Source: Comamonas testosteroni (lineage in GTDB: Bacteria; Pseudomonadota; Gammaproteobacteria; Burkholderiales; Burkholderiaceae_C). Taken from it: a stretch of DNA of 64,000 bases. Positions 15,922 to 62,047 of the stretch are shown in pieces; position 1 is the first letter of the stretch, and each line of letters opens with the position of its first letter. The DNA is taken from positions 1,550,001-1,614,000 of the forward strand of contig NZ_CP043568.1 in the NCBI RefSeq assembly GCF_014076415.1, read 5' to 3'. The notes under the pieces are model-generated. The model saw nothing but the letters and a program-made list of their open reading frames with translations. It did no database searches and was not told the DNA's origin. The position numbers and the translations under genes are program-made.

Positions 15922-15939
15922 TTAGTCTTCTTGGACGAT
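15922..15939 (+). promoter_or_regulatory. 18-bp shared operator, site 1 (operon A)
   Basis: TTAGTCTTCTTGGACGAT, in the opposite orientation ATCGTCCAAGAAGACTAA, an imperfect inverted repeat. It lies 66 bp upstream of the ATG at 16006. It is almost identical to site 2 (19479-19496) and shares the CGTCCA core with sites 3 to 6, each before a steroid gene or operon. Binder unknown. Confidence 0.65.
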
Positions 15940-16005
15940 GGGCTGAAGGCGATTTCTTTTTACGCTGTCTCCAAGTTTTGATTGCACATCAACAAGGAGA
16001 CAAGA

Positions 16006-16737
16006 ATGCGTTTAGCCGGAAAAGTTGCCGTGGTCACAGGGGCGGGCCAGGGCATGGGGCGAGCGATTGCACAGCGTTTTGCCGATGAGGGGGCCACTGT
16101 GGTGGCCGTGGACCTGAACGAAGAAGCAGCCAGGCAGACCCTGGAAGGCAAGCTTGGCAAGCATCTGGCCCGTTCCTCCAACGTGGCCGACAGCGCTGCG
16201 GTCGATGCGCTGTTTGTCGAAATCCGCGAAAAGCTGGGCACCGTCGACGTGCTGGTGAACAACGCAGGCGTAGGCTCAGTGGACCAGTTTGCCGATATTC
16301 CCGACGCGACCTGGGAGCGCGTGATTGGCGTGAACCTGAACGGCGCTTTCTACTGCGCCCGTGCCGCCGTCAAGCAGATGCAGGAAGGCAAGGGCGGTGC
16401 CATCGTCAATATCTCCAGCACCTCGGCTGTCAGCGGTGACGGTCCGGCGCACTACTGCGCTTCCAAGGCCGCCCTGATGGGTTTGACCCGTGGCATGGCC
16501 AAGGAGCTGGCGTCCAAGAAGATCCGTGTAAACACACTGGTTCCCGGTCCCACCAACACGCCCATGATGCAGGGCATTCCCCAGGAATGGGCCGATGCCA
16601 TCATCGCCGGCGTGCCCATGGGGCGCATGGCTGAGCCAGAAGACATCGCCAAGGTGGCCGTGTTCCTTGCCAGCGACGACAGCGGCTTTGTGACGGGTCA
16701 GAACGTGGCAGTCAACGGCGGCAGCGCCTTCCTCTAA
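16006..16737 (+). CDS. Short-chain dehydrogenase/reductase (SDR), steroid cluster
   Basis: 243 aa from the ATG at 16006, preceded by AAGGAGACA. Classical SDR with the cofactor motif TGAGQGMG (about 12-19), NNAG, catalytic Ser in ISSTSAVSG and YCASK. An NAD(H)-type acidic residue (VAVDLNEE) ends beta-2, so NAD+ is the likely cofactor. It opens operon A and is followed 12 bp later by another SDR. In the steroid context it may oxidise or reduce a ring hydroxyl/keto group (for example at C-12, C-7 or C-17) or a hydroxyacyl-CoA. Exact substrate not determinable. Confidence 0.85.
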   Translation: MRLAGKVAVVTGAGQGMGRAIAQRFADEGATVVAVDLNEEAARQTLEGKLGKHLARSSNVADSAAVDALFVEIREKLGTVDVLVNNAGVGSVDQFADIPDATWERVIGVNLNGAFYCARAAVKQMQEGKGGAIVNISSTSAVSGDGPAHYCASKAALMGLTRGMAKELASKKIRVNTLVPGPTNTPMMQGIPQEWADAIIAGVPMGRMAEPEDIAKVAVFLASDDSGFVTGQNVAVNGGSAFL

Positions 16738-16749
16738 GGAGAGACAAGC

Positions 16750-17517
16750 ATGAGCAAGCGTCTGGAAGGAAAGATTGCATTTGTGACCGGTGGTGGCTCC
16801 GGTATCGGTGCCGCAACGGCTGAACGTTTCGCACAGGAGGGGGCAACCGTCGTGATCTGCGGTCGCCGCAAACAGCCTCTCGAAGAAGTCGTGGCCAGAA
16901 TCAAGGCGGCAGGCGGCAGTGCCGAGGCCATCGTGGCCGACGTGGGCAACGAAGCCCAGTTTGTCGGTGCGCTGGAGCAGACTGCCAAAAAGCATGGCAG
17001 CCTGGACATTCTGGTCAACAACGCCATGGCCTACACCTGGGGCGGCATCGACGGCATGACCACGGCGGACTGGCATGCCAATTTTTCCACCTCGGTGGAC
17101 GGCACTTTCTGGGGGACGCGCACGGCGCTGAAGCTGATGGGCGCCAAGGGTGGTTCCATCGTCAATATCAGCTCCATCTGCGGCACTCTGGGTACACCGT
17201 TTATGTCCGGTTACTCGGCAGCCAAGGCGGCCATCATCAACTTTTCGCGTGCCGCGGCTGCCGAAGGTGCTGCAGCAGGCATCCGCGTGAACGTGGTGAT
17301 CCCGGCTGTGGTGGAAACGCCTGCCACGGCCGGCATGCTGGCTGATGAGGCATCGCGCAAGAACACCGAAAAGCTCATTCCCATGGGGCGCGTGGGGCAG
17401 TCCGGCGAGCTGGCCAATGCCGTGCTGTTTCTGGCCAGCGACGAGGCCAGCTATGTGACAGGTGCCGCCCTGCCCGTGGATGGCGGCCGTTCCGCGGTGC
17501 TGGTGACGGCGCTGTAA
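16750..17517 (+). CDS. Short-chain dehydrogenase/reductase (SDR), steroid cluster
   Basis: 255 aa; ATG follows AAGGAGAGACAAGC. Motifs: TGGGSGIG, ICGRRKQ at the end of beta-2 (two Arg suggest NADP(H)), NNAMAY instead of NNAG, catalytic Ser in ISSICG and YSAAK. The cofactor preference appears opposite to that of the preceding SDR, so the pair could invert a hydroxyl configuration through a ketone; this is inference. Genes on both sides are 12-16 bp apart, so it is part of operon A. Confidence 0.85.
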   Translation: MSKRLEGKIAFVTGGGSGIGAATAERFAQEGATVVICGRRKQPLEEVVARIKAAGGSAEAIVADVGNEAQFVGALEQTAKKHGSLDILVNNAMAYTWGGIDGMTTADWHANFSTSVDGTFWGTRTALKLMGAKGGSIVNISSICGTLGTPFMSGYSAAKAAIINFSRAAAAEGAAAGIRVNVVIPAVVETPATAGMLADEASRKNTEKLIPMGRVGQSGELANAVLFLASDEASYVTGAALPVDGGRSAVLVTAL

Positions 17518-17533
17518 GAAAGAGGCTGAAGAG

Positions 17534-18181: not shown

Positions 18182-18190
18182 GGAGCCGGC

Positions 18191-19273: not shown

Positions 19274-19301
19274 TCCATCAAGAAACTGAGTTCATCGTGT
19301 T

Positions 19302-19478: not shown

Positions 19479-19496
19479 TTAGTCTCAATGGACGAT
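19479..19496 (+). promoter_or_regulatory. 18-bp shared operator, site 2 (operon B)
   Basis: TTAGTCTCAATGGACGAT; the other strand reads ATCGTCCATTGAGACTAA. It lies 69 bp upstream of the ATG of the tesB-like gene and differs from site 1 at only three central positions, in a region otherwise unlike the site 1 promoter. Same relative placement as sites 1, 3, 5 and 6. Confidence 0.65.
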
Positions 19497-19565
19497 GTTT
19501 GCAAAGGCTCTCCTCTTCAGAATCCTCTGCATCACTAAAGGATTTGGGTTGGAGGCCCCGACATC

Positions 19566-20468
19566 ATGATGGAAATACGTGGACTAGCGTACGTTGTTGC
19601 CGAGAGCTCTGATTTGGATCGCTGGGTCAGCTATGCACGTGATGTGCTTGGCATGATGCCAAGCACCACTGCCGATGGCGATCTGCTGATCAAGATGGAT
19701 GAGCGTCAGTTCCGCTTCCAGGTTCAGCCTGGCAGCAATGACAGATACTCCGCATCTGGTTGGGAAGTGGCCAACAAGCAAGCCTTTGAGCAGGCGCTCA
19801 AGGTGCTGCAGGCAGCTGATGTGCACTACGAAATGGGCAGCTCCGAGCTGTGTGCCAAGCGCCATGTGCAGGAGCTGGCCATCGTGGTGGATCCGTCCGG
19901 AAACCGTCATGAGATCGTCTGGGGCTTCAAGTCCGACTTCAGCCATTTCGCATCGCCCCAGGGGGTTTCACGCTTCGTCACCGGCGACTATGGCCTGGGC
20001 CATACCGTGCTGCCCGCTCCCGACTTCGACAAGACCGTGGCCTTTGTGCGCAATGTACTGGGCTTTGGTCTTTCGGACATCTACAACTTCAAGCCCGCAG
20101 GCGATGCCGGCCCCACGGTCCGCATTCATTTCTTCCACTGCGCCAACGCTCGTCACCACAGTCTGGCGCTGGCCGAGTTCCCTTCCGCTTCGGGCTGCGT
20201 GCATGTGATGGTGGAGGTGGACAACATGCCCGAAGTGGGCCGTGCCATGGACCGCATGCAAAAGAGCCAGGTCAAGCTCTCTGCCACTCTGGGTCAGCAC
20301 ACCAACGACAAGATGATCTCGTTCTACATGAAGACGCCCTCCAACTTCGACCTGGAGTTCGGCTATGGCGGCGCCGTCATCGACTGGGAACACCACATCA
20401 CGCACGAGTTCACGACCGTAAGCCTCTGGGGGCACGACTTCAGCGTGGGCCGCCCTGAAAACAACTGA
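19566..20468 (+). CDS. tesB: TesB/HsaC-type extradiol dioxygenase (3,4-DHSA 4,5-dioxygenase)
   Basis: 300 aa two-domain vicinal-oxygen-chelate protein (ATG at 19566 or 19569). All type I extradiol residues align with BphC: Fe ligands His146 (GLGHTVL), His213 (CVHVMVEV) and Glu264 (FDLEFGYGG), plus second-shell His198, His245 (GQHTNDKM) and Tyr254. Length equals HsaC. In C. testosteroni TesB opens the aromatised A ring of 3,4-dihydroxy-9,10-secoandrostatrienedione. The immediately following CoA-transferase pair matches the gene order I recall for tesB in strain TA441. A biphenyl or other catechol dioxygenase is the alternative, less likely in this context. First gene of operon B. Confidence 0.83.
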   Translation: MMEIRGLAYVVAESSDLDRWVSYARDVLGMMPSTTADGDLLIKMDERQFRFQVQPGSNDRYSASGWEVANKQAFEQALKVLQAADVHYEMGSSELCAKRHVQELAIVVDPSGNRHEIVWGFKSDFSHFASPQGVSRFVTGDYGLGHTVLPAPDFDKTVAFVRNVLGFGLSDIYNFKPAGDAGPTVRIHFFHCANARHHSLALAEFPSASGCVHVMVEVDNMPEVGRAMDRMQKSQVKLSATLGQHTNDKMISFYMKTPSNFDLEFGYGGAVIDWEHHITHEFTTVSLWGHDFSVGRPENN

Positions 20469-20484
20469 TAGGAGGCTTGGAGAC

Positions 20485-21363
20485 ATGGCCAATAAATTGA
20501 TGACAGCGAAGGACGTTGTGGCATCCATCAAGGATGGCATGACGATCGGAATTGGTGGCTGGGGACCCCGGCGCAAGCCCATGGCACTGGTGCGCGAGCT
20601 GCTGCGCAGCCCAGTCAAGGATCTGACCGTGGTGGCCTATGGCGGTGCCGATGTGGGCATGTTGTGTGCGGCCGGCAAGGTCAGGAAGTTGATCTTCGCC
20701 TTTGTGTCGCTGGACTTCATTCCGCTTGAGCCGTACTTTCGCAAGGCCCGCCAGAGTGGTGAGATCGAGGTCATGGAAATTGACGAAGGTCATATGGTGC
20801 TGGGCCTGAAGGCTGCTGGCATGCGTATTCCCTACATTCCCACCCGAGTCGGTCTGGGTACCGATGTGCTCAAGCACAACAGCTCCATCCGCCTGATCGA
20901 GTCGCCTTACGACGGCAGGGAATGGGTGGCAATGCCCGCCATCAACCTGGATGTGGCCCTGCTGCATGTGGATCGCGCGGACTCCCGCGGCGTCTGCCAG
21001 ATTGCCGGCCCCGACATCTATATGGACGACCTGTTTGCGCGCGCCGCGACCAACACCTTCGTGAGCTGCGACGAACTGGTCGAGAGCAGCAGCTTCGAGT
21101 CGGAGCAAGCCGCCCGCCTGGTGTTCTGGGAGCGTTCCGAAACCACGGGCGTCGTGCACCTGCCAGGTGGTGCCCACCCATCGTCCTGCGCGCCCCTGTA
21201 TGGCTTTGATGTCAAGCACTTCAAGGAATACGCGGCCAGCAGCAAGGAAGAAGCCGGCTGGGACAGCTATCAGCAGAAATACGTGCAGTGCACGGAGCAG
21301 GAATATCTGGAAAAAGTGGGTGGCATGGAGGCAATCAAGCGCCTGCCCTTGCCCGTGTTCTGA
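20485..21363 (+). CDS. scdL1: IpdA-type CoA-transferase family ring hydrolase, alpha subunit
   Basis: 292 aa, CoA-transferase family I alpha-subunit fold. Closely follows mycobacterial IpdA in the N-terminal third (DGMTIGIGGWGPRRKPMALV, VAYGGADVGMLC, GKVRKLIFAFVSLD). Glu101 in EIDEGH aligns with the catalytic Glu of IpdA as I recall it. IpdAB is not a transferase: it hydrolytically opens the last carbocyclic ring (C ring) of the HIP-derived CoA thioester. ScdL1/ScdL2 are the C. testosteroni TA441 names for this pair. The ribosome site GATAGGAGG is strong and the beta subunit follows 12 bp later. Confidence 0.85.
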   Translation: MANKLMTAKDVVASIKDGMTIGIGGWGPRRKPMALVRELLRSPVKDLTVVAYGGADVGMLCAAGKVRKLIFAFVSLDFIPLEPYFRKARQSGEIEVMEIDEGHMVLGLKAAGMRIPYIPTRVGLGTDVLKHNSSIRLIESPYDGREWVAMPAINLDVALLHVDRADSRGVCQIAGPDIYMDDLFARAATNTFVSCDELVESSSFESEQAARLVFWERSETTGVVHLPGGAHPSSCAPLYGFDVKHFKEYAASSKEEAGWDSYQQKYVQCTEQEYLEKVGGMEAIKRLPLPVF

Positions 21364-21375
21364 GGAGGCCAAGAG

Positions 21376-22146
21376 ATGAGTGAAATTGCATTGGTAGATC
21401 GCGTCATCTGCGCCGCGGCACGTGCCTGGGAAAACGACGGCGAGGTGCTGGCCACCGGCATCGGCCTGGTGCCGCGACTGGCGGCTTCGCTGTGCATGCG
21501 GTCCATCAACACCGATCTGATCATGACGGACTCGGAGGCCTGGGTGGTCAGCGAGCCCGTGCCCGTAGGCCCGCGAGGTGAGTACAAGATCAAGCGTGAA
21601 AGTTGGATGGGCTTCTCGCGCATCTTCGACAACGTCTGGGGTGGCAAGCGCCACGCCATGGTGGGTCCCGTGCAGGTAGACCGCTTCGGTCAGGGCAATA
21701 TCTCCATGGTGGGCAGCGACTACGCCCGCCCCAAGTCCATGATGCTGGGCGTGCGCGGCTTCCCCGGTAATTCGATCAACCACGCCAACTCCTTCTTTGT
21801 TCCCAACCACAGCACCAAGGTATTTGTGTCGGGCGAGGTCGATGCAGTGGGCAGCGTGGGCTACAACCCCGCACGCCTGGCCAGGGGCTGGACGCTGGAG
21901 GAGACCACCGACATTCGCTTCATCTTCACCAATCTGTGTGTGATGGACTTTGGTGGACCCAGCCATCAAGTGCGCCTGGTGTCGCTGCATCCCGGCGTGA
22001 CGGCAGTGCAGGTCAAGGAGGCCACGGGCTTTCCGATCCATGTCCCCGAGAACGTGGGTGTGACACCTGATCCCACGCCCGAGCAACTGGCCTTGCTGGC
22101 TCAGCTCGATCCGCACAATCTGCGCGCTACGGCCATGGGAGTCTGA
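21376..22146 (+). CDS. scdL2: IpdB-type CoA-transferase family ring hydrolase, beta subunit
   Basis: 256 aa beta partner of the preceding gene, the usual IpdB length. Shows the CoA-transferase beta fold (ATGIGLVPRLAASLCM near the N-terminus; GGPSHQVRLVSLHPGVT near the C-terminus). The classical SENG motif with the CoA-accepting Glu of true transferases is absent (TDSEAWVVSEP instead), which agrees with a hydrolase role. GAGGAGG ribosome site; the next gene begins one base after the stop. Acts with ScdL1 in C-ring opening after D-ring cleavage. Confidence 0.85.
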   Translation: MSEIALVDRVICAAARAWENDGEVLATGIGLVPRLAASLCMRSINTDLIMTDSEAWVVSEPVPVGPRGEYKIKRESWMGFSRIFDNVWGGKRHAMVGPVQVDRFGQGNISMVGSDYARPKSMMLGVRGFPGNSINHANSFFVPNHSTKVFVSGEVDAVGSVGYNPARLARGWTLEETTDIRFIFTNLCVMDFGGPSHQVRLVSLHPGVTAVQVKEATGFPIHVPENVGVTPDPTPEQLALLAQLDPHNLRATAMGV

Positions 22147-22147
22147 T

Positions 22148-23050
22148 ATGGATGATGCATCCAGCGAATTTGTGGCACGCGAGGACAAGGCCGTCTATGA
22201 AACGGACGAGCCCGTTCTCTACAGCGTGGACAAGGGCATTGCCACGGTCACCATGAATCGACCCACGTTCAACAACGTGCAGAACTCGCAGATGACCTAT
22301 GCGCTGGATGCAGCCTTGCGCAAGGCGACCGACGACGACGACGTCAAGGTCATCGTGCTGCGCGGTGAGGGCAGGCACTTCAGCGCGGGTCACGACATCG
22401 GCACGCCCGGGCGAGACATCAACAAGCCCTTTGACCGCGTGCACCTGTGGTGGGATCACACCAACAAGCCCGGTGGCGAACAGCTGTTTGCCCGCGAGCA
22501 GGAGGTCTACCTGGGCATGTGCCGGCGCTGGCGCGAGATACCCAAACCCATGATTGCCATGGTGCAGGGGGCATGCGTGGCGGGCGGTCTGATGCTGGCC
22601 TGGGTCTGCGATCTGATCGTGGCCAGTGACGATGCGTTTTTCCAGGATCCCGTGGTGCGCATGGGCATTCCCGGTGTGGAGTACTTCGCCCACGCTCACG
22701 AGCTGCATCCGCGTATTGCCAAGGAGTTCCTGCTGCTGGGTGAGCGCATGCCGGCAGAGCGCGCCTATCAGATGGGCATGGTCAACCGCGTGGTGTCGCG
22801 TGCCGAGCTCGAGGACCAGGTCTATGCCATGGCCCAGCGCATGGCGGCACAGCCGCGTCTGGGCCTGGCGCTGACCAAGATGGTCGTCAACAAGGCTGAA
22901 GAGCTGCAGGGCCTGCGCTCCACCATGGACATGGCTTTTGGCTATCACCACTTTGCTCACGCACACAGTCAGGCGATGGGCATGGGGCAGCTGGGCGGCC
23001 AGGACGCCAGGTCCATGGCAAAGGCCAACAAAGAAGAGTCAAAGGCATGA
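22148..23050 (+). CDS. Enoyl-CoA hydratase/isomerase (crotonase) family protein
   Basis: 300 aa, about 40 residues longer than simple crotonases because of an N-terminal extension and a C-terminal tail (HAHSQAMGMGQLGGQDARSM). Oxyanion-hole segments GEGRHFSAGHDIG and GACVAGGLMLAWVCDLIVA are intact. In place of the usual catalytic Glu region it reads RMGIPGVEYFAHAHEL, so the chemistry may differ from simple hydration. Lies between the IpdAB and IpdC homologues, suggesting action on an HIP-derived CoA ester. It overlaps the ends of both neighbours tightly (spacing 1 bp and -4 bp). Confidence 0.82.
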   Translation: MDDASSEFVAREDKAVYETDEPVLYSVDKGIATVTMNRPTFNNVQNSQMTYALDAALRKATDDDDVKVIVLRGEGRHFSAGHDIGTPGRDINKPFDRVHLWWDHTNKPGGEQLFAREQEVYLGMCRRWREIPKPMIAMVQGACVAGGLMLAWVCDLIVASDDAFFQDPVVRMGIPGVEYFAHAHELHPRIAKEFLLLGERMPAERAYQMGMVNRVVSRAELEDQVYAMAQRMAAQPRLGLALTKMVVNKAEELQGLRSTMDMAFGYHHFAHAHSQAMGMGQLGGQDARSMAKANKEESKA

Positions 23051-24135
23051 GCAATATGAACGATATGGGCAGTCTGCGCACTCCTATCTGTGACCTGCTG
23101 GGGTGCCGCTATCCCGTCATCCAGACTGCCATGGGCTATGTGGCGGGGGCTGATCTGGTGATCGGTACGACCAATGCTGGCGGTTTTGGCTTCCTGGCAG
23201 GTGCCACCATTCCTGCCGACAGGATCGAAGCCGAGATTCTGCGTGTCAAGCGCGAGACCGATGATCAGCCTTTCGGGCTGAACTTTCACATGTTCCAGCC
23301 CAATGCCCAGCAACTGCTGGATCTGGCTGTGAAATACCGTCTTCGTGCTGTGAGCTATGGCCGCGGTCCGGACAAGAAGGTGATAGGCCGTCTGCGCGAA
23401 GCCGGCATCGTCTGCATGCCCACAGTGGGGGCTCTGAAGCACGCTCAAAAGGCGATCGAGATGGGGGCCAATGCCATCACCGTGCAAGGGGGAGAGGGGG
23501 GAGGCCATACCGGCAGCGTTCCCACCACGGTGCTGCTGCCTCAGGTAGTGGATGCGGTCGATGTGCCCGTGATTGCTGCAGGCGGCTTTTATGACGGCCG
23601 TGGCCTGCTGGCTGCTCTGGCCTATGGCGCATCGGGTATTGCCATGGGCACGCGGTTCTTGATGACCAGTGATTCCAAGGTGCCCGCTGCCACGCTGCAG
23701 CGCTATCTGGCTACAAAGGATGCGGAAAAGATCGCCATCTCCCATCTGGTCGATGGCATGCCCCAGCGCATGATCCCCAACGAATATCTGGCCATGCTGG
23801 AAAAAGCCAGTCCCGTGAAGCGCTTGCGCATTGCCCTGAGTCTGGCGTTGCAGTGGAAGGCCGAGACCGGCATGACCACGGGCCAGGCCTTGAGCATCTT
23901 CATGAAGGCCATGCGCGAAGACTCGTCTTCCGTCGCTCAGACCGTGATGGCTGCCAACGCCCCCATGTTGCTGCAGCGCTCCATGGTTGACGGCAATCCC
24001 GCAGAGGGCGTGATGTCCGCTGGCCAGGTGGCTGCTCTGATTGGCCGGCTCGACAGCTGCGAGGAGGTGATTGGCGGCATTGTCCGCCAGGCCATGGACC
24101 GTCGCAACGCATTGAACGCATTGACTCCCGCATGA
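23047..24135 (+). CDS. IpdC-like FMN-dependent enoyl-CoA reductase (nitronate monooxygenase fold)
   Basis: 362 aa TIM-barrel flavoprotein. Segments PVIQTAMGYVAGADLV, FGLNFHMF, VQGGEGGGHTG and AGGFYDGRGLLAALAYGASGIAMGTRF are the FMN-binding core; VDGMPQRM and MAANAPMLL match mycobacterial IpdC, with which it agrees in length. IpdC acts in HIP catabolism on an unsaturated CoA thioester, creating the double bond pattern needed for ring opening. Starts 4 bp inside the previous gene and ends with an ATGA overlap with the next. ScdK is probably the C. testosteroni name, but I am not certain of it. Confidence 0.83.
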   Translation: MSNMNDMGSLRTPICDLLGCRYPVIQTAMGYVAGADLVIGTTNAGGFGFLAGATIPADRIEAEILRVKRETDDQPFGLNFHMFQPNAQQLLDLAVKYRLRAVSYGRGPDKKVIGRLREAGIVCMPTVGALKHAQKAIEMGANAITVQGGEGGGHTGSVPTTVLLPQVVDAVDVPVIAAGGFYDGRGLLAALAYGASGIAMGTRFLMTSDSKVPAATLQRYLATKDAEKIAISHLVDGMPQRMIPNEYLAMLEKASPVKRLRIALSLALQWKAETGMTTGQALSIFMKAMREDSSSVAQTVMAANAPMLLQRSMVDGNPAEGVMSAGQVAALIGRLDSCEEVIGGIVRQAMDRRNALNALTPA

Positions 24136-24917
24136 CAACACGCCAACAAGACTGGTATATGTCCACTCAACAATTTCACTCCAATATTCATGACAACGGT
24201 GTGGCAGAGCTGGTGATCGACCGTGCTCCCGTGAATGCCTTGAATGCCGCCGGCTGGAATGGTCTGGCCAGGGAAATCCAGGCGCTGGGCGATAGAGCCG
24301 ATGTGCGCGTGATCGTCATCCGTGCCGAGAACCGCGGCTTCTGCGCGGGTGTGGACATCAAGGAGCTAGCGACCAACGACAAGCTCATCATCGATGTGAA
24401 CGCAGGCAACTACGCCACGTTCAAGGCAGTGCACCTGAACAAGGTACCCGTCATCACCGCCGTGCACGGCTTTGTGCTGGGCGGCGGAATCGGCATCTGC
24501 GGTGCATCGGACATCGTGATCGCCGCAGAAGACGCCACTTTCGGCCTGCCCGAGGTGGACCGAGGAGCCATGGGCGGTGCCGCCCATCTGCAGCGCATGT
24601 TCGGCGTGCAGAAGACCCGCTATCTGTTCTTCACGGGCGAGATGATCGCTGCGGCAGAAGCCCTGCGCCTGGGGGCCATAGAGCGTGTAGTTCCCCGTGA
24701 GCAGCTGCGCGACGTCGCCATGGAGATCGCCAACAAGATTGCCGCCAAGAGCCCCGCCATGATCCGCATCGCCAAGGAGGCGCTGACCGGCATCGAAGAT
24801 GGCAATCTCGAAGACAAATACCGCTGGGAGCAGGGATTCACCCTGCAAGCCTATATGAGTCCAGATTCCGCCGAGACGCGTAGCGCCTTTGTGGAAAAGC
24901 GCGACGCCAAATTCTGA
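24132..24917 (+). CDS. EchA20-like crotonase (D-ring hydrolase of HIP pathway)
   Basis: 261 aa from the ATGA-overlapping start at 24132; an ATG at 24159 is equally possible and gives a more typical crotonase N-terminus. It tracks mycobacterial EchA20 through NRGFCAGVDIKE, VHGFVLGGGIGICGASDIVIA, ATFGLPEVDRGAMGGAAHL, AKEAL and the end YRWEQGFT. EchA20 opens the five-membered D ring of the HIP-CoA intermediate before IpdAB opens ring C. Gene content (IpdA, IpdB, IpdC, EchA20) repeats the KstR2-regulon block of mycobacteria in a Betaproteobacterium. Confidence 0.85.
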   Translation: MTTRQQDWYMSTQQFHSNIHDNGVAELVIDRAPVNALNAAGWNGLAREIQALGDRADVRVIVIRAENRGFCAGVDIKELATNDKLIIDVNAGNYATFKAVHLNKVPVITAVHGFVLGGGIGICGASDIVIAAEDATFGLPEVDRGAMGGAAHLQRMFGVQKTRYLFFTGEMIAAAEALRLGAIERVVPREQLRDVAMEIANKIAAKSPAMIRIAKEALTGIEDGNLEDKYRWEQGFTLQAYMSPDSAETRSAFVEKRDAKF

Positions 24918-24945
24918 GCATCACTAGCGCGAAGAGGAAACAACC

Positions 24946-26100
24946 ATGGATTTGACATACACCCCAGCGCAGAAGACCTTCCGTGCCCAGGTACGTGAAT
25001 GGCTCAAGAACAATGTGCCCAAGGAACGACTGCAGAGCTATGACACCCGAGAGGGGTTCGAGCAGCACCGCCAGTGGGAAGCCAGGTTGGCCAGCGCCGG
25101 CTACAGCGCCGTGACCTGGCCCAAGGACCTGGGCGGCAGCGGCTGCGACCTGACCGAATGGCTGATATTTGAGGAAGAGTACTGGGCAGCCGATGCGCCA
25201 TCCCGCGTGAACCAGAACGGTATTCTGCTGCTGGGCTCCACGCTGATGGAATTCGGCACGCCCGAGCAGAAGGCCCGTTTTCTGCCCCGTATGGCCCGCT
25301 GCGACGATATGTGGGCCCAGGGTTGGTCCGAGCCCAACGCCGGCTCGGACATGGCTGCCATCAGCAGCCGCGCCACACGCATGGGTGACAAATTCATTCT
25401 GAACGGTCAGAAAATCTGGTCTACCCGCGCCATCTTTGCAGACTGGGTGTTCGGCCTGTTCCGCAGCGACCCGACATCGAGCCGCCATCATGGTCTGAGC
25501 TACATACTGGTGCCCTTGAATACGCCCGGCATCACCGTGCGCCCCATTCGTGCCATCAATGGCCGCGAGCACTTTGCCGAAATCTTCTTCGACGATGTCG
25601 AGGTACCCGTGGAGAACCTGCTGGGTGCAGAAGGCAAGGGCTGGCATGTGGCGATGGCGACGGCCGGCTTCGAGCGCGGCCTGCTGCTGCGCTCTCCCGC
25701 CCGCTATCAGCGCAGTGCGCAGAAGCTGCTGGACCTGTATCTGCGCAATCAGGTCGATGCCGACCGCGACCACTCCATTCGCGACGCTGTTCTGCGTGCC
25801 TGGCAAGGGGCGGAGGCATACACGCTGTCCTCCTATCACACGGTAGGCCGCCTCAACAAGGGCGCACAGATTGGCGCTGAAGCCAGTACCAACAAGATTG
25901 TCTGGTCCGAGCTGGACATCATGATTCACGAAACCGCGATGCGCATTCTGGGCGCGCGTGCCGAGCTCATCGATGACGCCGAGGCCAACGAATGGCTTGA
26001 AGGTTTCCTGTTCTCGCAGGCCGGTCCCATCTACGCGGGCAGCAACGAGATCCAGCGCAACATCATCGCTCAGCGCATGCTGGGTCTGCCCAAATCCTGA
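24946..26100 (+). CDS. Acyl-CoA dehydrogenase, alpha-type subunit
   Basis: 384 aa. FAD/substrate motifs WAQGWSEPNAGSDMA and NGQKIWSTRA, a middle beta domain, and the C-terminal IYAGSNEIQRNIIAQRMLGLP. The Glu of MCAD-type YEGT is replaced by Ala here; catalytic bases at the alternative (helix G) site are common in steroid ACADs. Paired with the next gene, 17 bp downstream, whose protein is the divergent partner type; such pairs form alpha2beta2 tetramers in actinobacterial steroid catabolism (FadE28/29, FadE31-33 types). Probably introduces a double bond during beta-oxidation of an HIP-derived acyl-CoA. Confidence 0.85.
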   Translation: MDLTYTPAQKTFRAQVREWLKNNVPKERLQSYDTREGFEQHRQWEARLASAGYSAVTWPKDLGGSGCDLTEWLIFEEEYWAADAPSRVNQNGILLLGSTLMEFGTPEQKARFLPRMARCDDMWAQGWSEPNAGSDMAAISSRATRMGDKFILNGQKIWSTRAIFADWVFGLFRSDPTSSRHHGLSYILVPLNTPGITVRPIRAINGREHFAEIFFDDVEVPVENLLGAEGKGWHVAMATAGFERGLLLRSPARYQRSAQKLLDLYLRNQVDADRDHSIRDAVLRAWQGAEAYTLSSYHTVGRLNKGAQIGAEASTNKIVWSELDIMIHETAMRILGARAELIDDAEANEWLEGFLFSQAGPIYAGSNEIQRNIIAQRMLGLPKS

Positions 26101-26117
26101 TCGGCAGGGAGACAACC

Positions 26118-27257
26118 ATGGACTTCACCTTTACCGAAGATCAAATCGCATTCCGTGACTCGATCAGCCGCTTTCTGATGACCGAAGCAGCCCCCGAGCT
26201 GCTGCGCGACATCTGGGAAACTCCGACCGGTCGCAGCCCCGAGCTGTGGGCCAGGATTGCAGAACAAGGCCTGATGGGCCTGTCCGCCCCCGAGGCCGAT
26301 GGCGGCATGGGCATGGCCGATGTGGACTGGGCACTGCTGCTGCAGGAAGTGGGTTATTACGCTCTGCCCGATTCCTTGACCGACACAGCCTATGTGGCCG
26401 TGGGCATGCTGAGTGCATTGCCGCAAGGACATGAGAGCCGTGTCTGGCTGTCCAGGATTGCCGAAGGCAGCTGCCGCGTGGCCGTGGGCCATCCCGTCAA
26501 CCCCAATGTGGCGGACGCCGCACTGGCCGATGTGCTGTTGCTGCCCCATGCCACGGCCACCGGCCTGGAACTGCACCTGGTCAGGCCTGCACAGTGCGAG
26601 ATCACGGCACTGGGCAGCATCGACTCCTCGCGCCGCCTGTCACGGGTGCGCTGGACGGCATCCGATGCCACGCGCTTGCTCGATGGAGCTCAGGGTCGGA
26701 AGGTCTGGGACACTGCCGGCGAGCGCGGGGCACTCGCCGCAGCTGCCCAGATGCTGGGCCTGGCCCAGCGCATGCTGGACCTGTCGGTGGACTATGTGGC
26801 ACAGCGCAAGCAGTTCGACAAGGTCATCGGCAGCTTTCAGGCCGTGCAGCACCACCTGTCGGACATCGTCACCAAGATCGAGTTTGCCAAACCAGTGCTC
26901 TACCGTGCCTTCTATGCGCTGCAGCACGGCGAACCCGATCTGGCCGTGCGCATCTCGCACGCCAAGCTCCAGTGCAGCGAAGCGAGCTGGTTTGCGGCAC
27001 GCAACAGTCTGCAGGTCCATGGCGCCATGGGTTACACCTGGGAAGTCGATCTGCAGATGTTCATGAAGCGCGCCTGGGTACTGGACGCTGCCTGGGGCGA
27101 CAAGGCATACCATGCGGCCCGCCTGACTCAGGGGCTGCTGCGCAGTCCCAATGCCCCCGTGGGCCCCGGATCGACTTTTGATCGAGAAATCGATTCATGT
27201 GCCTCCTGCTCTGCGCAGGATGCGGTGAAGAACATTGCTGAAGAGGTGGCTGCATGA
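26118..27257 (+). CDS. Acyl-CoA dehydrogenase, beta-type partner subunit
   Basis: 379 aa. The N-terminal and C-terminal ACAD helical domains are clear (FTEDQIAFRDSISRFL; YVAQRKQFDKVIGSFQAVQHHL; LQVHGAMGYTWEVDL), while the middle domain is short and lacks the standard FAD-binding motifs of the alpha-type protein. This asymmetric pattern is typical of heteromeric steroid ACADs that share one FAD per dimer. It ends with an ATGA overlap with the thiolase gene, indicating coupled translation. Partner most likely the product of the preceding gene. Confidence 0.84.
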   Translation: MDFTFTEDQIAFRDSISRFLMTEAAPELLRDIWETPTGRSPELWARIAEQGLMGLSAPEADGGMGMADVDWALLLQEVGYYALPDSLTDTAYVAVGMLSALPQGHESRVWLSRIAEGSCRVAVGHPVNPNVADAALADVLLLPHATATGLELHLVRPAQCEITALGSIDSSRRLSRVRWTASDATRLLDGAQGRKVWDTAGERGALAAAAQMLGLAQRMLDLSVDYVAQRKQFDKVIGSFQAVQHHLSDIVTKIEFAKPVLYRAFYALQHGEPDLAVRISHAKLQCSEASWFAARNSLQVHGAMGYTWEVDLQMFMKRAWVLDAAWGDKAYHAARLTQGLLRSPNAPVGPGSTFDREIDSCASCSAQDAVKNIAEEVAA

Positions 27258-28408
27258 GCGCCCAGGCCTATATCGTTGATGCGCTGCGCTCTCCTACCGG
27301 CAAGCGCAAGGGCTCTCTCGCCACCGTGCACGGCGCCGACCTCGGCGCCCATGTGATCAAGGCGCTGGTCGAGCGCAACGACATTCCCGCAGCCGATTAC
27401 GACGACGTGATCTTTGGCTGCGTGGACACCATCGGCTCCCTGGCCGGCGACATTGCCCGCACTTCCTGGCTGGCAGCCGGTATGCCCTTGAACGTTCCCG
27501 GCACCACGATCGACCGCCAGTGCGGCTCCTCCCAGCAAGCCATTCACTTTGCGGCCCAGGCCGTGATGAGCGGCACGCAGGACGTGGTGCTGGCCGGTGG
27601 TGTGCAGACCATGACGGCCATTCCCATCTCCTCGGCCATGCTCGCCGGCCAGCCCCTGGGCTTTACCACGCCGTTTGCCGAGAGCAAGGGCTGGCAGGCC
27701 CGCTTCGGCAACGCGCCAGTGAACCAGTTCTATGCCGCCCAGCGTATTGCCGACCACTGGGGTGTGAGTCGTGCCGATATGGAAGTGTTTGCCAAGGAAA
27801 GCCACGACCGCGCTTTGAATGCGATTGCCGATGGCCGCTTCGACCGTGAAATCGCCCCCTTTGGCGCTTTCAGGATGGACGAGACGGCTCGCCTTTCCAC
27901 TCTGGAGAAGATGGCCACGCTGGAGCCGGTGGACCCCAGCTATCCCTCCATCACGGCAGCCGTCTCGAGCTCCACCTGCGATGCAGCGGCTGCCGTGCTG
28001 GTGGTGTCCGAAGCCGCTCTCAAGCGCTACAACCTCAAGCCCCGCGCCCGCATTCACCATATGAGCGTGCGCGCCGATGACCCCATCTGGCACCTGACCG
28101 CTCCGATTCCCGCCACGGAATATGCGCTCAAGAAGGCTGGCATGACCATGTCCGACATCGACCTGGTCGAGATCAACGAGGCCTTCGCTTCCGTGGTCAT
28201 GGCCTGGCTCAAGGAGACCGGCTACGACCATGCCAAAACCAATGTCAACGGCGGCGCGATTGCGCTCGGTCATCCACTGGGGGCCTCGGGCGCAAAGCTC
28301 ATGACCACACTGCTGCACGAGCTGGAGCGCACGGGCGGGCGCTATGGGCTGCAGACCATGTGCGAAGGTGGTGGTCAGGCCAACGTCACCATCATCGAAC
28401 GTCTCTGA
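27254..28408 (+). CDS. Thiolase (acetyl-/propionyl-CoA acyltransferase), FadA6-like
   Basis: 384 aa. Nucleophilic Cys in TIDRQCGSSQQA (about 88-99), His in NVNGGAIALGHPLGASG and the second Cys in TMCEGGGQAN complete a degradative thiolase active site; NEAFA is also present. Downstream of an ACAD pair and the ring-opening enzymes, it fits thiolytic cleavage of a 3-ketoacyl-CoA arising from the opened C/D rings, like FadA6 in the mycobacterial KstR2 regulon. Followed by a perfect 10-bp hairpin and then two amidase genes. Confidence 0.86.
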   Translation: MSAQAYIVDALRSPTGKRKGSLATVHGADLGAHVIKALVERNDIPAADYDDVIFGCVDTIGSLAGDIARTSWLAAGMPLNVPGTTIDRQCGSSQQAIHFAAQAVMSGTQDVVLAGGVQTMTAIPISSAMLAGQPLGFTTPFAESKGWQARFGNAPVNQFYAAQRIADHWGVSRADMEVFAKESHDRALNAIADGRFDREIAPFGAFRMDETARLSTLEKMATLEPVDPSYPSITAAVSSSTCDAAAAVLVVSEAALKRYNLKPRARIHHMSVRADDPIWHLTAPIPATEYALKKAGMTMSDIDLVEINEAFASVVMAWLKETGYDHAKTNVNGGAIALGHPLGASGAKLMTTLLHELERTGGRYGLQTMCEGGGQANVTIIERL

Positions 28409-28416
28409 TGGCGCTC

Positions 28417-28440
28417 ATGCAGGCACCGCAGTGCCTGCAT
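28417..28440 (+). other. Intercistronic hairpin between thiolase and amidase genes
   Basis: ATGCAGGCAC (28417-28426) is a perfect inverted repeat of GTGCCTGCAT (28431-28440) around a 4-nt loop. No T tract follows, so it is not a standard terminator; it may protect the upstream mRNA or reduce expression of the amidases. Confidence 0.6.
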
Positions 28441-28503
28441 GCCTTGGAGTTCAGGTGTTAGCGGTTTAGCAGGTCGTCCAAAAAAATCAACGGAGACAAA
28501 GAC

Positions 28504-30069
28504 ATGCAAGACAAAGCGACGGATTCAGATCGCAGAGCATTCCTGGCCGGGGCAACTGCCACGGCGGCAGCACTGGGTCTGCCAGCAGCGCAAGCGCAAG
28601 TCGGCACCAGGACCGTTGCGCAGGCCGATGCCATCACCATGGCAGCGCAGATGCGCAAAGGCGATGTCACGCCGCTGGAGGCTCTTGATGCCGCCATTGC
28701 GCGCGTTGAAGCCTTGCCCAAGCTCAATGCCGTGGTCATCAAAGACTACGAACTGGCCCGCGCGCATGCCAAGAAGCTCTCGGCCATGGGCCGCGATGCA
28801 CGCAAACAGGCGACTGACAAAGCCCCGCTGTGGGGTCTGCCGTTTGTGCTCAAGGACCTGGGCCTGAGCATGGCAGGAACCGTGACCAGCAATGGTTGCC
28901 GCTTCTTCAAGGATGCTGTCGCTTCGCAGGACTCCACGCTGGTGACGCGCTACAAGGCTGCGGGTCTCAACATCTTTGGCAAGACGGCATCTCCCGAGTT
29001 CGGCATGACGACCACCACAGAGTCAAGGCTTTACGGCGTCACGCCCAACCCCTGGAACACCGGGCATACCACGGGCGGTTCTTCCGGTGGGACTGCCGCT
29101 GTGGTGGCGGCCGGCATTCTGCCCGTGGGCCATGCCAGCGATGGCGGCGGCTCCATCCGCATACCGACCGCACATTGCGGCCTGTTCGGACTCAAGCCCA
29201 GTCGTGGACGTGTGCCTGCAGGGCCGGGAGCGCTGGATGGCGCAACAGGTTTGTCGGTGAACCACGTCATCAGCCGCAGCGTGCGCGACGCTGCCTTGCT
29301 GCTGGACTTGAGTGCTGGGCCCGAATTCGGCTCGCGAGTGCGACCTCCCTCTGATGTTCCACGCGGCTACCTTGAAGCGATGCACCAGCCCGAGCACAAG
29401 CTGCGTATTGCCGTCTGGCGCAAGAACTACTTCGGGATTCCCGTACATGCCGAATGCCTGGAGGCCGTGGACAAAGCAGCCAAGGCCTGCGAGGCCCTGG
29501 GGCATTTTGTTGAAGAGGCCATGCCAGAGCTGCCGGTGAACGAAATTTTTGGCGGCATGGGTACAGGCATGTCGGCAGGTCTGCTCAGCGCCATCGAATA
29601 CCGTGAAAAGCAGCTGGGCCGCGCTGTGCGCGAAGACGAGATGGAGCCGTTGAACTGGGCCGCGTTGCAGGCCGCGAAGAAGGCCTCGGCGCTGGATCTG
29701 TACCGTGGCCGCGCAGGCTTCGACAAGGCGGGGCAATTGATCGATGCATTCCTGTCCAGGTACGACCTGATTCTGACGCCAACCACCGTGGTGCCTGCAC
29801 AGAAACTGGGCGTGCTGCGACTCGATCAGCCTTATCAAAGCTATGCCGCCGAGGCCATGAACTCCTCCGCCTTTACCTCGCTGTTCAACATCAGCGGTCA
29901 TCCGGCCATGTCCGTGCCGCTGCACTGGACGGCAGACCACCTCCCTGTGGGTTCCCACTTTGTCGCACCGTTTGGTGGCGAAGGCCGCTTGCTGCGCCTG
30001 GCGGCGCAGCTGGAGCAAGCACTGCCATGGGCACATCGCGTGCCCGACCTGTCCGCACTCAAGGCTTGA
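28504..30069 (+). CDS. Tat-exported amidase-signature enzyme (first of tandem pair)
   Basis: 521 aa. N-terminus SDRRAFLAG plus a hydrophobic Ala-rich stretch ending PAAQAQ is a twin-arginine signal peptide, so the enzyme is predicted periplasmic. Amidase-signature catalytic triad: Lys117 (VLKD), cis-Ser193 (TGGSSGG) and nucleophile Ser217 (DGGGSIRIP). Family members hydrolyse amides, including cyclic dimers and N-acyl amino acids. A tandem paralogue follows directly. Within a steroid operon a plausible role is hydrolysis of amide-conjugated bile salts outside the cytoplasm, but this is inference only; a general amide scavenger is the alternative. Confidence 0.83.
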   Translation: MQDKATDSDRRAFLAGATATAAALGLPAAQAQVGTRTVAQADAITMAAQMRKGDVTPLEALDAAIARVEALPKLNAVVIKDYELARAHAKKLSAMGRDARKQATDKAPLWGLPFVLKDLGLSMAGTVTSNGCRFFKDAVASQDSTLVTRYKAAGLNIFGKTASPEFGMTTTTESRLYGVTPNPWNTGHTTGGSSGGTAAVVAAGILPVGHASDGGGSIRIPTAHCGLFGLKPSRGRVPAGPGALDGATGLSVNHVISRSVRDAALLLDLSAGPEFGSRVRPPSDVPRGYLEAMHQPEHKLRIAVWRKNYFGIPVHAECLEAVDKAAKACEALGHFVEEAMPELPVNEIFGGMGTGMSAGLLSAIEYREKQLGRAVREDEMEPLNWAALQAAKKASALDLYRGRAGFDKAGQLIDAFLSRYDLILTPTTVVPAQKLGVLRLDQPYQSYAAEAMNSSAFTSLFNISGHPAMSVPLHWTADHLPVGSHFVAPFGGEGRLLRLAAQLEQALPWAHRVPDLSALKA

Positions 30070-30096
30070 ATGCCCAGCAGCAAGAAGGAGGAGAGC

Positions 30097-31659: not shown

Positions 31660-31718
31660 TTTCAAGAGCGCAGACAGGCTGCGTGCCTGCTCTGCACAGC
31701 AAGCAAAAGGGGAAACAA

Positions 31719-32594: not shown

Positions 32595-32663
32595 ACAGAA
32601 GAAACAGCCGGGGCATGGGGCCCGGCCTTCCCATTCGATGAAGAACTCAGGACGCGAGCCATC

Positions 32664-35122: not shown

Positions 35123-35140
35123 ATCGTCCAAAGTGACGAT
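35123..35140 (+). promoter_or_regulatory. 18-bp shared operator, site 3 (operon C)
   Basis: ATCGTCCAAAGTGACGAT: arms ATCGTC and GACGAT are perfect inverted repeats. 53 bp upstream of the ATG at 35194. Same core as sites 1, 2 and 4 to 6. Because the LuxR-family gene is the last gene of this operon, the site would provide autoregulation if LuxR is the binder. Confidence 0.68.
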
Positions 35141-35193
35141 GCTGCAGCGCAGCGGGAGCCGGAAGATCAGGGTAACTACCTTCTGAATGACAA

Positions 35194-35979: not shown

Positions 35980-35981
35980 GC

Positions 35982-37807: not shown

Positions 37808-37843
37808 TCTGTCTGCAACCAACCTTCAGCCAAGGAGTTGAAC

Positions 37844-42376: not shown

Positions 42377-42434
42377 GTCGGTCTCCTGTTTTTGTCTGCG
42401 ACTTTTCCATCTTGTGGATCCCGCCGGTTTTGAC

Positions 42435-42452
42435 CCCGTCCATTTGGAGTAT
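42435..42452. promoter_or_regulatory. 18-bp shared operator, site 5 (racemase / SDR divergent promoters)
   Basis: CCCGTCCATTTGGAGTAT, close to site 6 read on the minus strand (CTCGTCCAAACAGAGTAT) and sharing CGTCCA with all other sites. It lies 58 bp from the racemase start and 56 bp from the SDR start, in the middle of the divergent region. Less palindromic than site 4. Confidence 0.5.
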
Positions 42453-42508
42453 GTCCGGGATGAAAGCCAGGCCAACACTGGATATTCCATAGAAAAGGAG
42501 AGCAAGAT

Positions 42509-51177: not shown

Positions 51178-51185
51178 TGACTTGG

Positions 51186-54627: not shown

Positions 54628-54629
54628 TT

Positions 54630-58526: not shown

Positions 58527-58544
58527 ATCGTCCGTTGGGACGAT
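58527..58544. promoter_or_regulatory. 18-bp shared operator, site 4 (amidohydrolase / MFS divergent promoters)
   Basis: ATCGTCCGTTGGGACGAT, a perfect inverted repeat with 7-bp arms and a 4-bp centre; the most symmetrical copy and the best guide to the consensus. It lies between the divergent amidohydrolase (94 bp from its ATG) and MFS gene (about 100 bp from its start). Confidence 0.72.
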
Positions 58545-58643
58545 GTGAGTGCGGCAGCTCATGCCTCACGATGCTCAGGGCGGCGCCGGGATGCGGCAGC
58601 CATCTCGTCCTGGCAGCGGCGCAGAGGTGTGAGCTGCGGCGTG

Positions 58644-60697: not shown

Positions 60698-60775
60698 TAG
60701 CTGCCAGCGATTTATAAATAAGGAATTCAATATGTTTTGTATTGAATTTCCTTGGAGATAAAGCGCTGGCAGCTA
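60698..60775. repeat. Long imperfect inverted repeat with TAGCTGCCAGCG arms (copy 2)
   Basis: Left arm 60698-60732 (TAGCTGCCAGCG ... TTCAATA) and right arm 60740-60775 (TATTGAA ... GCGCTGGCAGCTA) form a stem of roughly 35 bp with a short loop. Same terminal sequences as copy 1 at 41083-41158. It lies between the convergent EthD and Rieske genes and probably ends both transcripts. Confidence 0.78.
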
Positions 60776-60857
60776 TGGTTTTCAAGGAGAGTCCCTCGCC
60801 CCGTCAACAAAAGGCCCATGCAAGCGCATGGGCCTTCAGCCTTGGAGATTCTCGGGA

Positions 60858-61967
60858 TCAGGCCGTCGCTTCCTCGGCTTCCTGGGTATAGGCCACCATT
60901 CCGCGCGGAATGTACCTGCCTTCGCACTGGTCCAGATATTCGGCCGCCTTGGCGCGCGGGTTGTAGAACTGCTTGTACCAGATGCGGGCCTTGAGGAAGG
61001 CGCCGTCGCTGGGGATGAACAGCGGGTTCAGGCAAGCTGCCTTTTGCGACCAGACTTCGAAGTCCTGGGCAAAGGCCAGTCGGCTGGCTTCCTGGTACTG
61101 TTTGGCCGCGATTTCATCCGCCTTGGTGGGCAGGCCGCCATGCGCTGTCTTGACCAGCAGGTTGTGCCAGACCTTGATCCTGCCGTCCTCGATGGGGGTA
61201 TGCATGATCATCATGAAAGAGTTGAACATGCCGCTGACCTTGGAGACCAGGATGGCGGGACCGTGGTACCAGGTATCGGTGTGCAGATCGGCACTGGCGC
61301 CGCCTTCGCCCACCAGGGTGCGATGGCCGCCGCACTGGCGCTGGATGGCGTTGTGGCCCTTGAATTCGTTCTCGAAGCGCGCCACCGTGGAGCCGTGGAT
61401 GGGGCTCAGGTGGCCATAGTCGGCGATATTGTCAACCACTTCCATGGGATGCTGGCTCAGCTCGCCCAGGTAATCCCACTGGCCGTTGACATAGGTCTCG
61501 TCACTCCAGTCGCCAAAAGCGGGCAGATCGTAGTCGGGCTCGCCGCCTTCGGGGTCGAACCAGACCCAGATGGCGCCGTATTGCTCGACCACCTTCCAGC
61601 TCTTGACCGCAGCAGCAGCCGGGATGGCACCGTCGTGATAGGGGATGTGGTTGCACTTGCCATCCGCGCCGAAGCGCCAGCCATGATAGGGGCAGCGAAT
61701 GCCGTCGCCTTCCACATTGCTGCCGCCTCCGTCGATCACCACATAGCTGGTGGTGTTGGGCGCTGCCAGATGGGTCTTCATATGGGGGCAGTAAGCGTCC
61801 AGCAGCACGACCTTGCCGCTTTCGCGGCCACGGTACAGCGCGAAATCCTGGCCGAAGAAGCGCACAGCCACAGGCTTGTGGGTGTCGAGCGCCCTGGCCT
61901 CGGAAATCATGAACCAGCCACGCGGGTAGGTGAATTCACCGAGGCGGTAGTCCTTCGTGGTTGCCAT
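60858..61967 (-). CDS. KshA-like Rieske non-heme iron oxygenase
   Basis: 369 aa terminal oxygenase subunit. Rieske [2Fe-2S] ligands Cys60, His62 (CPHMKTHL) and Cys92, His95 (CPYHGWRFG); mononuclear iron ligands Asp183, His186, His191 in DNIADYGHLSPIHG. The N-terminal RGWFMI and the C-terminal segment FAQDFEVWSQKA ... WYKQFY resemble 3-ketosteroid 9-alpha-hydroxylase KshA. The true KshA of C. testosteroni lies in another cluster as I recall, so this may hydroxylate a different steroid or a different position. No ferredoxin or reductase gene is in the window. An 18-bp site lies 62 bp upstream. Confidence 0.87.
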   Translation of the reverse strand: MATTKDYRLGEFTYPRGWFMISEARALDTHKPVAVRFFGQDFALYRGRESGKVVLLDAYCPHMKTHLAAPNTTSYVVIDGGGSNVEGDGIRCPYHGWRFGADGKCNHIPYHDGAIPAAAAVKSWKVVEQYGAIWVWFDPEGGEPDYDLPAFGDWSDETYVNGQWDYLGELSQHPMEVVDNIADYGHLSPIHGSTVARFENEFKGHNAIQRQCGGHRTLVGEGGASADLHTDTWYHGPAILVSKVSGMFNSFMMIMHTPIEDGRIKVWHNLLVKTAHGGLPTKADEIAAKQYQEASRLAFAQDFEVWSQKAACLNPLFIPSDGAFLKARIWYKQFYNPRAKAAEYLDQCEGRYIPRGMVAYTQEAEEATA

Positions 61968-62029
61968 TGCAGAGGTCTCCGTATTTAGTTTTGGACGGAT
62001 GAATCTTCTGGCAAGCGACGTCGCCGCGC

Positions 62030-62047
62030 ATACTCTGTTTGGACGAG
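62030..62047 (-). promoter_or_regulatory. 18-bp shared operator, site 6 (Rieske oxygenase)
   Basis: Minus strand reads CTCGTCCAAACAGAGTAT, 62 bp upstream of the Rieske start codon and close to site 5 (CCCGTCCATTTGGAGTAT). A weaker related stretch, ATCCGTCCAAAACTAA, follows nearer the gene at 61985-62000. Confidence 0.5.

Follow-up and report, generated by a model that had tools for sequence, protein, structure and literature searches.

A recurrent dyad in the steroid cluster of Comamonas testosteroni

The window examined here is a 64,000-nt stretch (bases 1550001-1614000) of the 5.95-Mb genome of a Comamonas testosteroni-group strain, whose steroid cluster occupies 98 kb (1.566-1.664 Mb). A sequence-only reading of this window had described an 18-bp dyad before at least six steroid-region promoters and had proposed a hidden regulon, read by the LuxR-family protein encoded at 37844, which is TesR (also called TeiR). 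All six 18-bp sequences are present where that reading placed them, and their consensus is approximately WTMGTCY-N4-GGACGAT, followed by a G toward the gene. These sites, here called boxes, are listed below with their scores in the weight matrix described in the next section, together with the genes most relevant to them; coordinates above 64,000 are chromosomal.

15922..15939, + strand: box 1, TTAGTCTTCTTGGACGAT, 66 bp upstream of the short-chain dehydrogenase/reductase (SDR) gene 16006-16737; score 19.0
19479..19496, + strand: box 2, TTAGTCTCAATGGACGAT, 69 bp upstream of tesB (19566-20468); score 22.2
35123..35140, + strand: box 3, ATCGTCCAAAGTGACGAT, 53 bp upstream of the SDR gene 35194-35979; score 23.1
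42435..42452, unstranded: box 4, CCCGTCCATTTGGAGTAT, between two divergent genes; score 16.1, or 13.3 when left out of training
58527..58544, unstranded: box 5, ATCGTCCGTTGGGACGAT, a perfect palindrome between two divergent genes; score 23.8
62030..62047, - strand: box 6, CTCGTCCAAACAGAGTAT, 62 bp upstream of kshA (- strand, 60858-61967); score 18.5
19566..34978, + strand: tesB-scd gene run, predicted to be controlled from box 2 (from gene calls, with gene families checked up to 24917)
37844..39091, + strand: tesR/teiR, encoding a LuxR-type (GerE) regulator of 415 aa, the most likely binder of the boxes

The SDR gene behind box 1 is the first of a four-gene run, and that behind box 3, which by position is scdG, opens the gene run that ends in tesR. 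Box 4 is common to a CoA-transferase III gene (- strand, 41192-42376) and an SDR gene (+ strand, 42509-43252), and lies 56 bp from the ATG at 42509; the - strand gene is taken, from its reading frame and an upstream AGGAG, to start with a TTG at 42376, which is 58 bp from the box. Box 5 faces an MFS transporter gene (+ strand, 58644-59960, start inferred) at 99 bp and an amidohydrolase gene (- strand, from 58432) at 94 bp, and the kshA product behind box 6 matches KshA_C (PF19298, E 1.2e-56). Among the start-codon distances reported earlier, those for boxes 4 and 5 had been exchanged. The set continues beyond the window, with further boxes at 1614354, 1632059, 1653486, 1653541, 1656040 and 1663684. 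The proposed weaker copy at 43454 scores -1.1 and is not a box. One cluster box lies inside a called gene (1631415 by matrix, 1631416 by the refined pattern below), and weaker boxes occur at 1616019, at 1645047 and between hsdA and a FadH-like pair.

The amidohydrolase gene beside box 5 (56811-58432) is split here over two overlapping frames of 206 and 334 aa. In two related loci (L150, L133) the amidohydrolase is a single open reading frame (ORF) of approximately 570 aa that faces the same box, and the split could reflect either disruption of the gene or an error in the sequence.

The dyad is concentrated in the steroid cluster

The core shared by the six sites, CGTCC and GASKA at fixed spacing, was assessed against dinucleotide shuffles of the window. 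CGTCC-N5-GASKA has seven matches, the palindromic box 5 being counted twice, versus 0.27 expected, and none of 100 shuffles reached seven; with one mismatch allowed, 19 matches were found versus 8.5 expected. Across the genome, 11 of the 43 matches to the loose pattern fall within 1.566-1.664 Mb (binomial 8e-11), as do 10 of only 14 matches to a refined pattern, TMSTCHNNNYRGACGA. The four refined-pattern matches outside the cluster are at 2302838 and 2306396 (beside a TesR paralog), at 3088812 (a DUF1329 gene) and at 4564877 (L270), the last of which has no weight-matrix support. TCGTCC-N4-GGACGA with two mismatches was dropped as too loose, because it occurs at 451 places in the genome.

An 18-bp weight matrix was trained on 12 cluster sites, which scored 13.3-22.9 when each was left out in turn. 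At a threshold of 15.5 or more, a 400-kb stretch yielded 14 matches, of which 13 lie in the cluster, whereas 40 column-permuted matrices gave a mean of 0.9 matches (maximum 5) and, in the cluster, 0.25 (maximum 2); the motif therefore does not occur at random frequency. Counting 6-mers gave the same word: GGACGA ranked highest of 1163 words and was present in 12 of 14 induced upstream regions versus 5 of 168 controls. The 14 regions, one per upstream region, were picked from published induction data together with our own gene calls. We conclude that the dyad is genuine and that it identifies a regulon.

Boxes coincide with testosterone-induced transcription units

Table 4 of PMC10637631 gives log2 changes for the 93 gene numbers GM003846-GM003938, which represent the corresponding cluster of C. 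testosteroni JLU460ET. Using the 3-h testosterone column of that table, we paired 30 transcription-unit leader genes by hand, by order and description and partly with Pfam checks; for JLU460ET the pairing used the published table. A box is found within 250 bp of every one of the 21 units induced by at least 4.2 (scores 11.2-23.8), and the eight units changed by 1.94 or less, three of which have an uncertain gene number, have no box (best scores at most 5.9). The 21 induced units share 14 best-scoring boxes, many of them divergent, and so are not independent. Four of them (hdhA; hsdA and the FadH pair; DUF1329) depend on three boxes below 15.5 (11.8, 11.2 and 14.9), all outside the training set of the matrix. 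Among 167 control upstream regions only two exceed 11, both at 14.9, and these are probably one divergent site at 1699030.

The boundary at box 1 fits the published table as well, in that the preceding XRE gene shows no change and the SDR gene behind the box is induced by 6.9; the tesB-scd run from box 2 corresponds to the induced block GM003933-3920; and the scdG-like run behind box 3 that ends in tesR is induced by 4.88-5.57 (PMC10637631). Some pairings are imperfect. One unit, 1628417 (GNAT plus GreA domains), was excluded as ambiguous because it could be either GM003881 (unchanged) or GM003883 (3.34); GM003882 (4.40) and GM003878 (1.36) have no mapped counterpart here; and GM003859, described as an "acyl dehydratase", was paired with a gene at 1653616 that carries a thiolase C-terminal domain.

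A dCache-GGDEF diguanylate cyclase gene (39449-40963, + strand) lies inside the steroid cluster and has no box. In the published table, the gene that probably corresponds to it shows no induction by testosterone (PMC10637631).

The dyad lies at a fixed distance from a -10-like hexamer

Weak -10-like hexamers follow the boxes of the window as listed here.

15961..15966, + strand: TACGCT, 21 bases past box 1
19518..19523, + strand: CAGAAT, 21 bases past box 2
35162..35167, + strand: GAAGAT, 21 bases past box 3
42474..42479, + strand: AACACT, 21 bases past box 4, for the + strand gene
42409..42414, - strand: CAAGAT, 20 bases past box 4, for the - strand gene; one base off the rule
58567..58572, + strand: CACGAT, 22 bases past box 5; one base off the rule
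62003..62008, - strand: GAAGAT, 21 bases past box 6

There is no clear -10-like hexamer on the - side of box 5. To a larger set, we applied criteria that did not include the -10 itself: the 218 matrix sites have 335 flanks that face a gene, and 54 of these were retained as promoter flanks because they are not within a long ORF, because an ATG ORF of at least 600 nt with a ribosome-binding site lies ahead of them, and because any two of them have fewer than 27 of 45 bases alike. NANNNT begins at offset 21 after the dyad in 39 of these 54 non-redundant promoters (33 of 46 from other loci and 6 of 8 of our own), compared with 0-7 promoters at each of the other 49 offsets and with 4 of 19 sites on their opposite side. 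The base directly after the dyad is G in 80% of cases on the gene side, compared with 32% opposite. Taking the T at offset 26 as position -7 puts the dyad centre at -42.5 and makes the final T of the dyad and the next G the second and third bases of a -35 element. With transcription starts that are predicted, this arrangement agrees with class II activator geometry, in which the operator is centred near -42 at a fixed spacing to the -10 element.

The dyad is conserved in related strains and genera

To evaluate site conservation, 12 sites of this genome were compared with nine relatives, which yielded 39 site-spanning alignments for 11 sites and eight relatives; none was obtained for box 5 or with Rhodoferax. 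Arm positions are identical at 537 of 546 (98.4%), spacer positions at 137 of 156 and flanks at 2296 of 3098 (74.1%), although the local alignments had to span the site, which introduces some bias toward site conservation. The sites are thus kept in related strains and genera.

We also scanned loci around TesR relatives, leaving out L151-L156 and ten C. testosteroni-group loci; some of the remaining loci are near relatives of one another or overlap. At a matrix score of 14 or more, 73 matches were found in 604 kb (37 loci; mean of 2.0 and maximum of 9 for permuted matrices), and 72 in 523 kb of 27 loci in which the TesR relative is approximately 40% identical (permuted mean 1.5, maximum 10), with 20 permuted matrices as the control. 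A box scoring at least 15.5 is present in 66 of 74 TesR-relative loci (L157-L230). TesR relatives adjoin steroid-gene homologs in Diaphorobacter, Rhodoferax, Caldimonas, Collimonas, Massilia, Cupriavidus and Paraburkholderia. The idea that the 40%-identical relatives (Cupriavidus, Paraburkholderia) serve another pathway was rejected because most of their loci hold HsaA, KstD, TesB or IpdA homologs.

TesR and its recognition helix accompany the boxes

In the literature TesR is a positive regulator of steroid genes: PMC6895838 reports that it is required for induction of tesB-tesR, tesA1-tesG and tesA2-ORF18. The protein encoded here is 99% identical over residues 1-415 to that of C. testosteroni ATCC 11996 (L159). 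Within the 417-aa ORF at 37838-39091, GerE (PF00196) matches residues 353-406 (E 2.4e-6; 27.5 bits against a cut-off of 23.5), and no autoinducer-binding, receiver or kinase domain was found by Pfam at E 1e-5, where only GerE reached the cut-off. Three parts can be told apart in the predicted model (mean pLDDT 69.9, pTM 0.46): an N-terminal one that is rich in helices and includes a sheet, a second one of alpha/beta type and the helix-turn-helix; the second part looks PAS-like and, as a lead only, the protein looks PAS/GAF-like. The 50 Foldseek matches listed for this model include phytochromes, PDE6, DhaR and VqmA; among them are also the sensor portions of kinases and phytochromes as well as a single WalK model, so that the fold search neither shows nor excludes a kinase.

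TesR orthologs of at least 91% identity are present in 12 of 37 same-genus genomes, and with palindromes counted twice the carriers have 12-19 pattern matches each, compared with 1-10 in each of the 25 non-carriers. A prediction fixed beforehand held for all four further genomes: only G061, with 15 matches, carries TesR, as two TesR-like genes (74% and 71%), and G062-G064 have only relatives of 23-33%. Outside the genus, among 321 genomes of the class, TesR matches are 24-33% identical. In four of these genomes the CoA-transferase gene at 20485 has a relative; the four gave no TesR match at E 0.001, in a search that is weak as evidence of absence, and have 0-2 pattern matches each, with no matrix match above 15.1 in the stretches around the gene. 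This control is small, as a 32% match is included and two of the relatives are on contigs of at most 14 kb.

The boxes accompany the recognition helix NTARAHLRSIFSK. Of 56 small or medium-sized loci of GerE relatives (289 kb, most approximately 4 kb), six have a match: three at proteins with NTARAHLRSIFSK, two, related to each other, at another helix (L099, L244) and one variant (L276). No match was found at the two loci with NTARAHLR (L240, L241). The L276 variant, a palindrome at L276:1427-1444 (ATCATCCAAATGGATGAT) that reads ATCATCC-N4-GGATGAT, lies near a GerE relative whose recognition helix is NTVRSQLQSIF, a hint of a helix-to-operator code.

Paralogs and outlying sites

A box lies 143 bp upstream of a TesR paralog at 2302996, whose recognition helix is almost that of TesR, and a second box lies 3.4 kb further. 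This locus (2302838-2306411; L111, L112) also contains an SDR gene and a choloylglycine-hydrolase-family gene, and is perhaps a bile-salt outpost of the regulon. A fragment at 2567349-2567567 that resembles the TesR helix-turn-helix (63% identity) contains two stop codons and looks like a decayed copy.

Far from the cluster, a box lies 29 bp before a DUF1329 gene (L269:8811-8828; chromosome 3088811/3088812). In G001 (L272) a box precedes a 91%-identical DUF1329 gene by 52 bp, measured to the first aligned residue (residue 9), and the stretch examined in G021 yielded no ortholog of this outlying gene. The cluster holds a second DUF1329 gene (1645192), which stands behind a weaker box and shows strong induction in the published table (PMC10637631).

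A model for TesR action and its alternatives

Building on the computed sites, their enrichment and conservation, the -10 spacing, the co-occurrence with TesR and the agreement with induction data, we consider it very probable that the 18-bp dyad is the TesR/TeiR operator, from which TesR would act as a class II activator of steroid genes, its own operon included. Co-occurrence and helix conservation point strongly to TesR as the binder, which makes the LuxR-family protein at 37844 the best-supported candidate, as the sequence-only reading had proposed. The two outcomes that this reading had named as refuting it, a motif at random frequency and sites not conserved in related strains, are both contradicted by the data. 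In the model that we infer, a steroid or steroid metabolite would render the TesR dimer competent, and the dimer would bind the dyad through its GerE helix-turn-helix. With the dyad centred at -42.5, its gene-side half and the next G would extend over the -35 position and be followed at a fixed distance by a weak -10, so that TesR could activate sigma-70 RNA polymerase as a class II activator. Each box would drive one promoter or two divergent promoters, and the regulon would span A/B-ring cleavage, KshA, side-chain and C/D-ring genes, transporters and the run ending in tesR. Because box 3 precedes that run, and the block is induced by 4.88-5.57, positive feedback of TesR on its own gene run is likely.

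Several observations weigh against this model or the evidence for it. A reversed-word control is more common in this genome than the refined pattern (35 versus 14), as it is for looser patterns (221 versus 43; 1197 versus 451), probably because the reversed word better suits the composition and codons of the genome; for this reason we placed weight on clustering, shuffles and permuted matrices. By a crude test, 35 of the 218 matrix sites lie inside a long ORF. NANNNT is missing from offset 21 in two of our eight promoters, on the minus side of 1608527 and on the plus side of 1653486. GM003882 (4.40) and GM003883 (3.34) are both induced in the published table (PMC10637631), and unit 1628417, if it is GM003883, is an induced unit without a box (best score -1.4). 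No box of at least 15.5 was found in 8 of the 74 TesR-relative loci (L162, L169, L175, L183, L190, L193, L194 and L201), five of which are shorter than 14 kb. A 59%-identical TesR paralog (5204175-5205392; L114, L240) and its relatives have nearly the same helix and no box nearby, and this combination also occurs at L121, L190 and L194. Finally, reviews describe TeiR as a polar membrane kinase, which fits poorly with a simple DNA-binding activator.

That description also favours a different arrangement, in which TesR is an upstream kinase or sensor and the boxes are bound by HsdR or another LysR protein, by the XRE/ScfR-like protein at 14284 or by a protein encoded elsewhere. LysR and XRE genes do lie in or beside the cluster, and HsdR and RepA have been reported at hsdA. 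However, the XRE protein and the two LysR proteins of the cluster were found in none of the 74 TesR-relative loci (35% identity, 50% coverage), 66 of which have boxes; one of them, LysR_1628, matches in five loci at 30-32%, below the cut-off, which counts against our preferred binder. Pfam gives TesR only GerE and no kinase (E 1e-5), and boxes occur at TesR paralogs (L163, L177, L178, L180-L182) where the nine other cluster proteins searched were not found. A regulator encoded elsewhere in these genomes could still be the binder, but overall we regard a protein other than TesR as improbable. A chance similarity or functionless dispersed repeat, which would account for the 32 of 43 loose matches elsewhere in the genome, is scarcely credible, as it is refuted by the shuffles, the permuted matrices, the fixed -10 spacing, the conservation of arms over flanks and the presence across genera.

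A further possibility, compatible with a TesR operator, is that the box is common to TesR and its paralogs (2302996, 5204175), which would form a small network with cross-regulation or competition. The paralog at 2302996, with its two boxes and nearly identical recognition helix, is consistent with this network, as is a LuxR repressor of 3,17beta-HSD reported in the species. There is, however, no box near the 5204175 paralog, and a teiR deletion mutant alone is reported as unable to use testosterone (PMC6895838), so that we consider such a network unlikely, if clearly less so than a binder other than TesR.

Significance and comparison with known systems

The system closest to these findings is the TesR/TeiR regulon of C. 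testosteroni (TA441, ATCC 11996), which has the same regulator, the same kind of 100-120 kb cluster and the same induced genes, and to which the present analysis adds the DNA site, its sequence rule, its promoter position and its spread. The word hidden is thus only partly apt for the regulon, as TesR control is known genetically (PMC6895838), but no TesR/TeiR operator came up in the open-access literature searched; one of Pruneda-Paz 2004, Gohler 2008 and Linares 2008 may describe promoter elements. The letters GGACGAT do appear in the LuxR literature, and in the two instances examined they lie inside primers. A TesR-like LuxR regulator is named, without a stated site, in a Caenibius progesterone cluster (PMC12239570), and two TeiR-like genes are described in P. 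stutzeri Chol1 (PMC8399759). The TesR relatives beside steroid-gene homologs in other genera speak against a remark in PMC6895838 that confines tesR-like genes to C. testosteroni.

With an operator defined and its promoter position fixed, the TesR regulon becomes open to single-base tests, further pathway genes are predicted and a steroid-inducible promoter for use in biosensors suggests itself. The result also bears on the question whether TeiR acts as a kinase or as a conventional DNA-binding activator. It is an evenly balanced proposition that the box and the TesR family represent the general control of aerobic steroid catabolism across many beta- and some gamma-proteobacteria, the counterpart of KstR in actinobacteria. 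If so, the box would find missing pathway genes, such as the two DUF1329 genes, a 67-aa ORF and the SDR gene beside the choloylglycine-hydrolase-family gene at the paralog locus, and a helix-to-operator code could be worked out from hints such as the L276 variant.

LuxR-type activator boxes, i.e., the lux box and its relatives, occupy the class II position of -42.5. The TesR boxes resemble them in the predicted use of a GerE helix-turn-helix, in forming an imperfect dyad and in a centre at -42.5 that overlaps the -35 element. They differ in the half-site, GGACGAT, and in a regulator with no autoinducer or receiver domain by Pfam that looks PAS/GAF-like in the predicted model. VqmA is a regulator that combines PAS and GerE domains. 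Five VqmA chains match the TesR model among the 50 Foldseek matches listed (E 5.5e-6 to 8.4e-5), a likeness that is a fold lead only, with low TM-scores of 0.20-0.23 on the query and a mean pLDDT of 69.9. The ACTU motif of CrbR, which controls the Pseudomonas acetate regulon, is likewise an imperfect inverted repeat at catabolic promoters with a LuxR-family reader, but its sequence is different (e.g., TACTACCATCGTCGAAT) and CrbS/R is a two-component system (PMC5715377). In actinobacteria, KstR and KstR2 likewise govern pathway-wide steroid regulons; they are TetR-type repressors of an unrelated family, whereas TesR is an activator.

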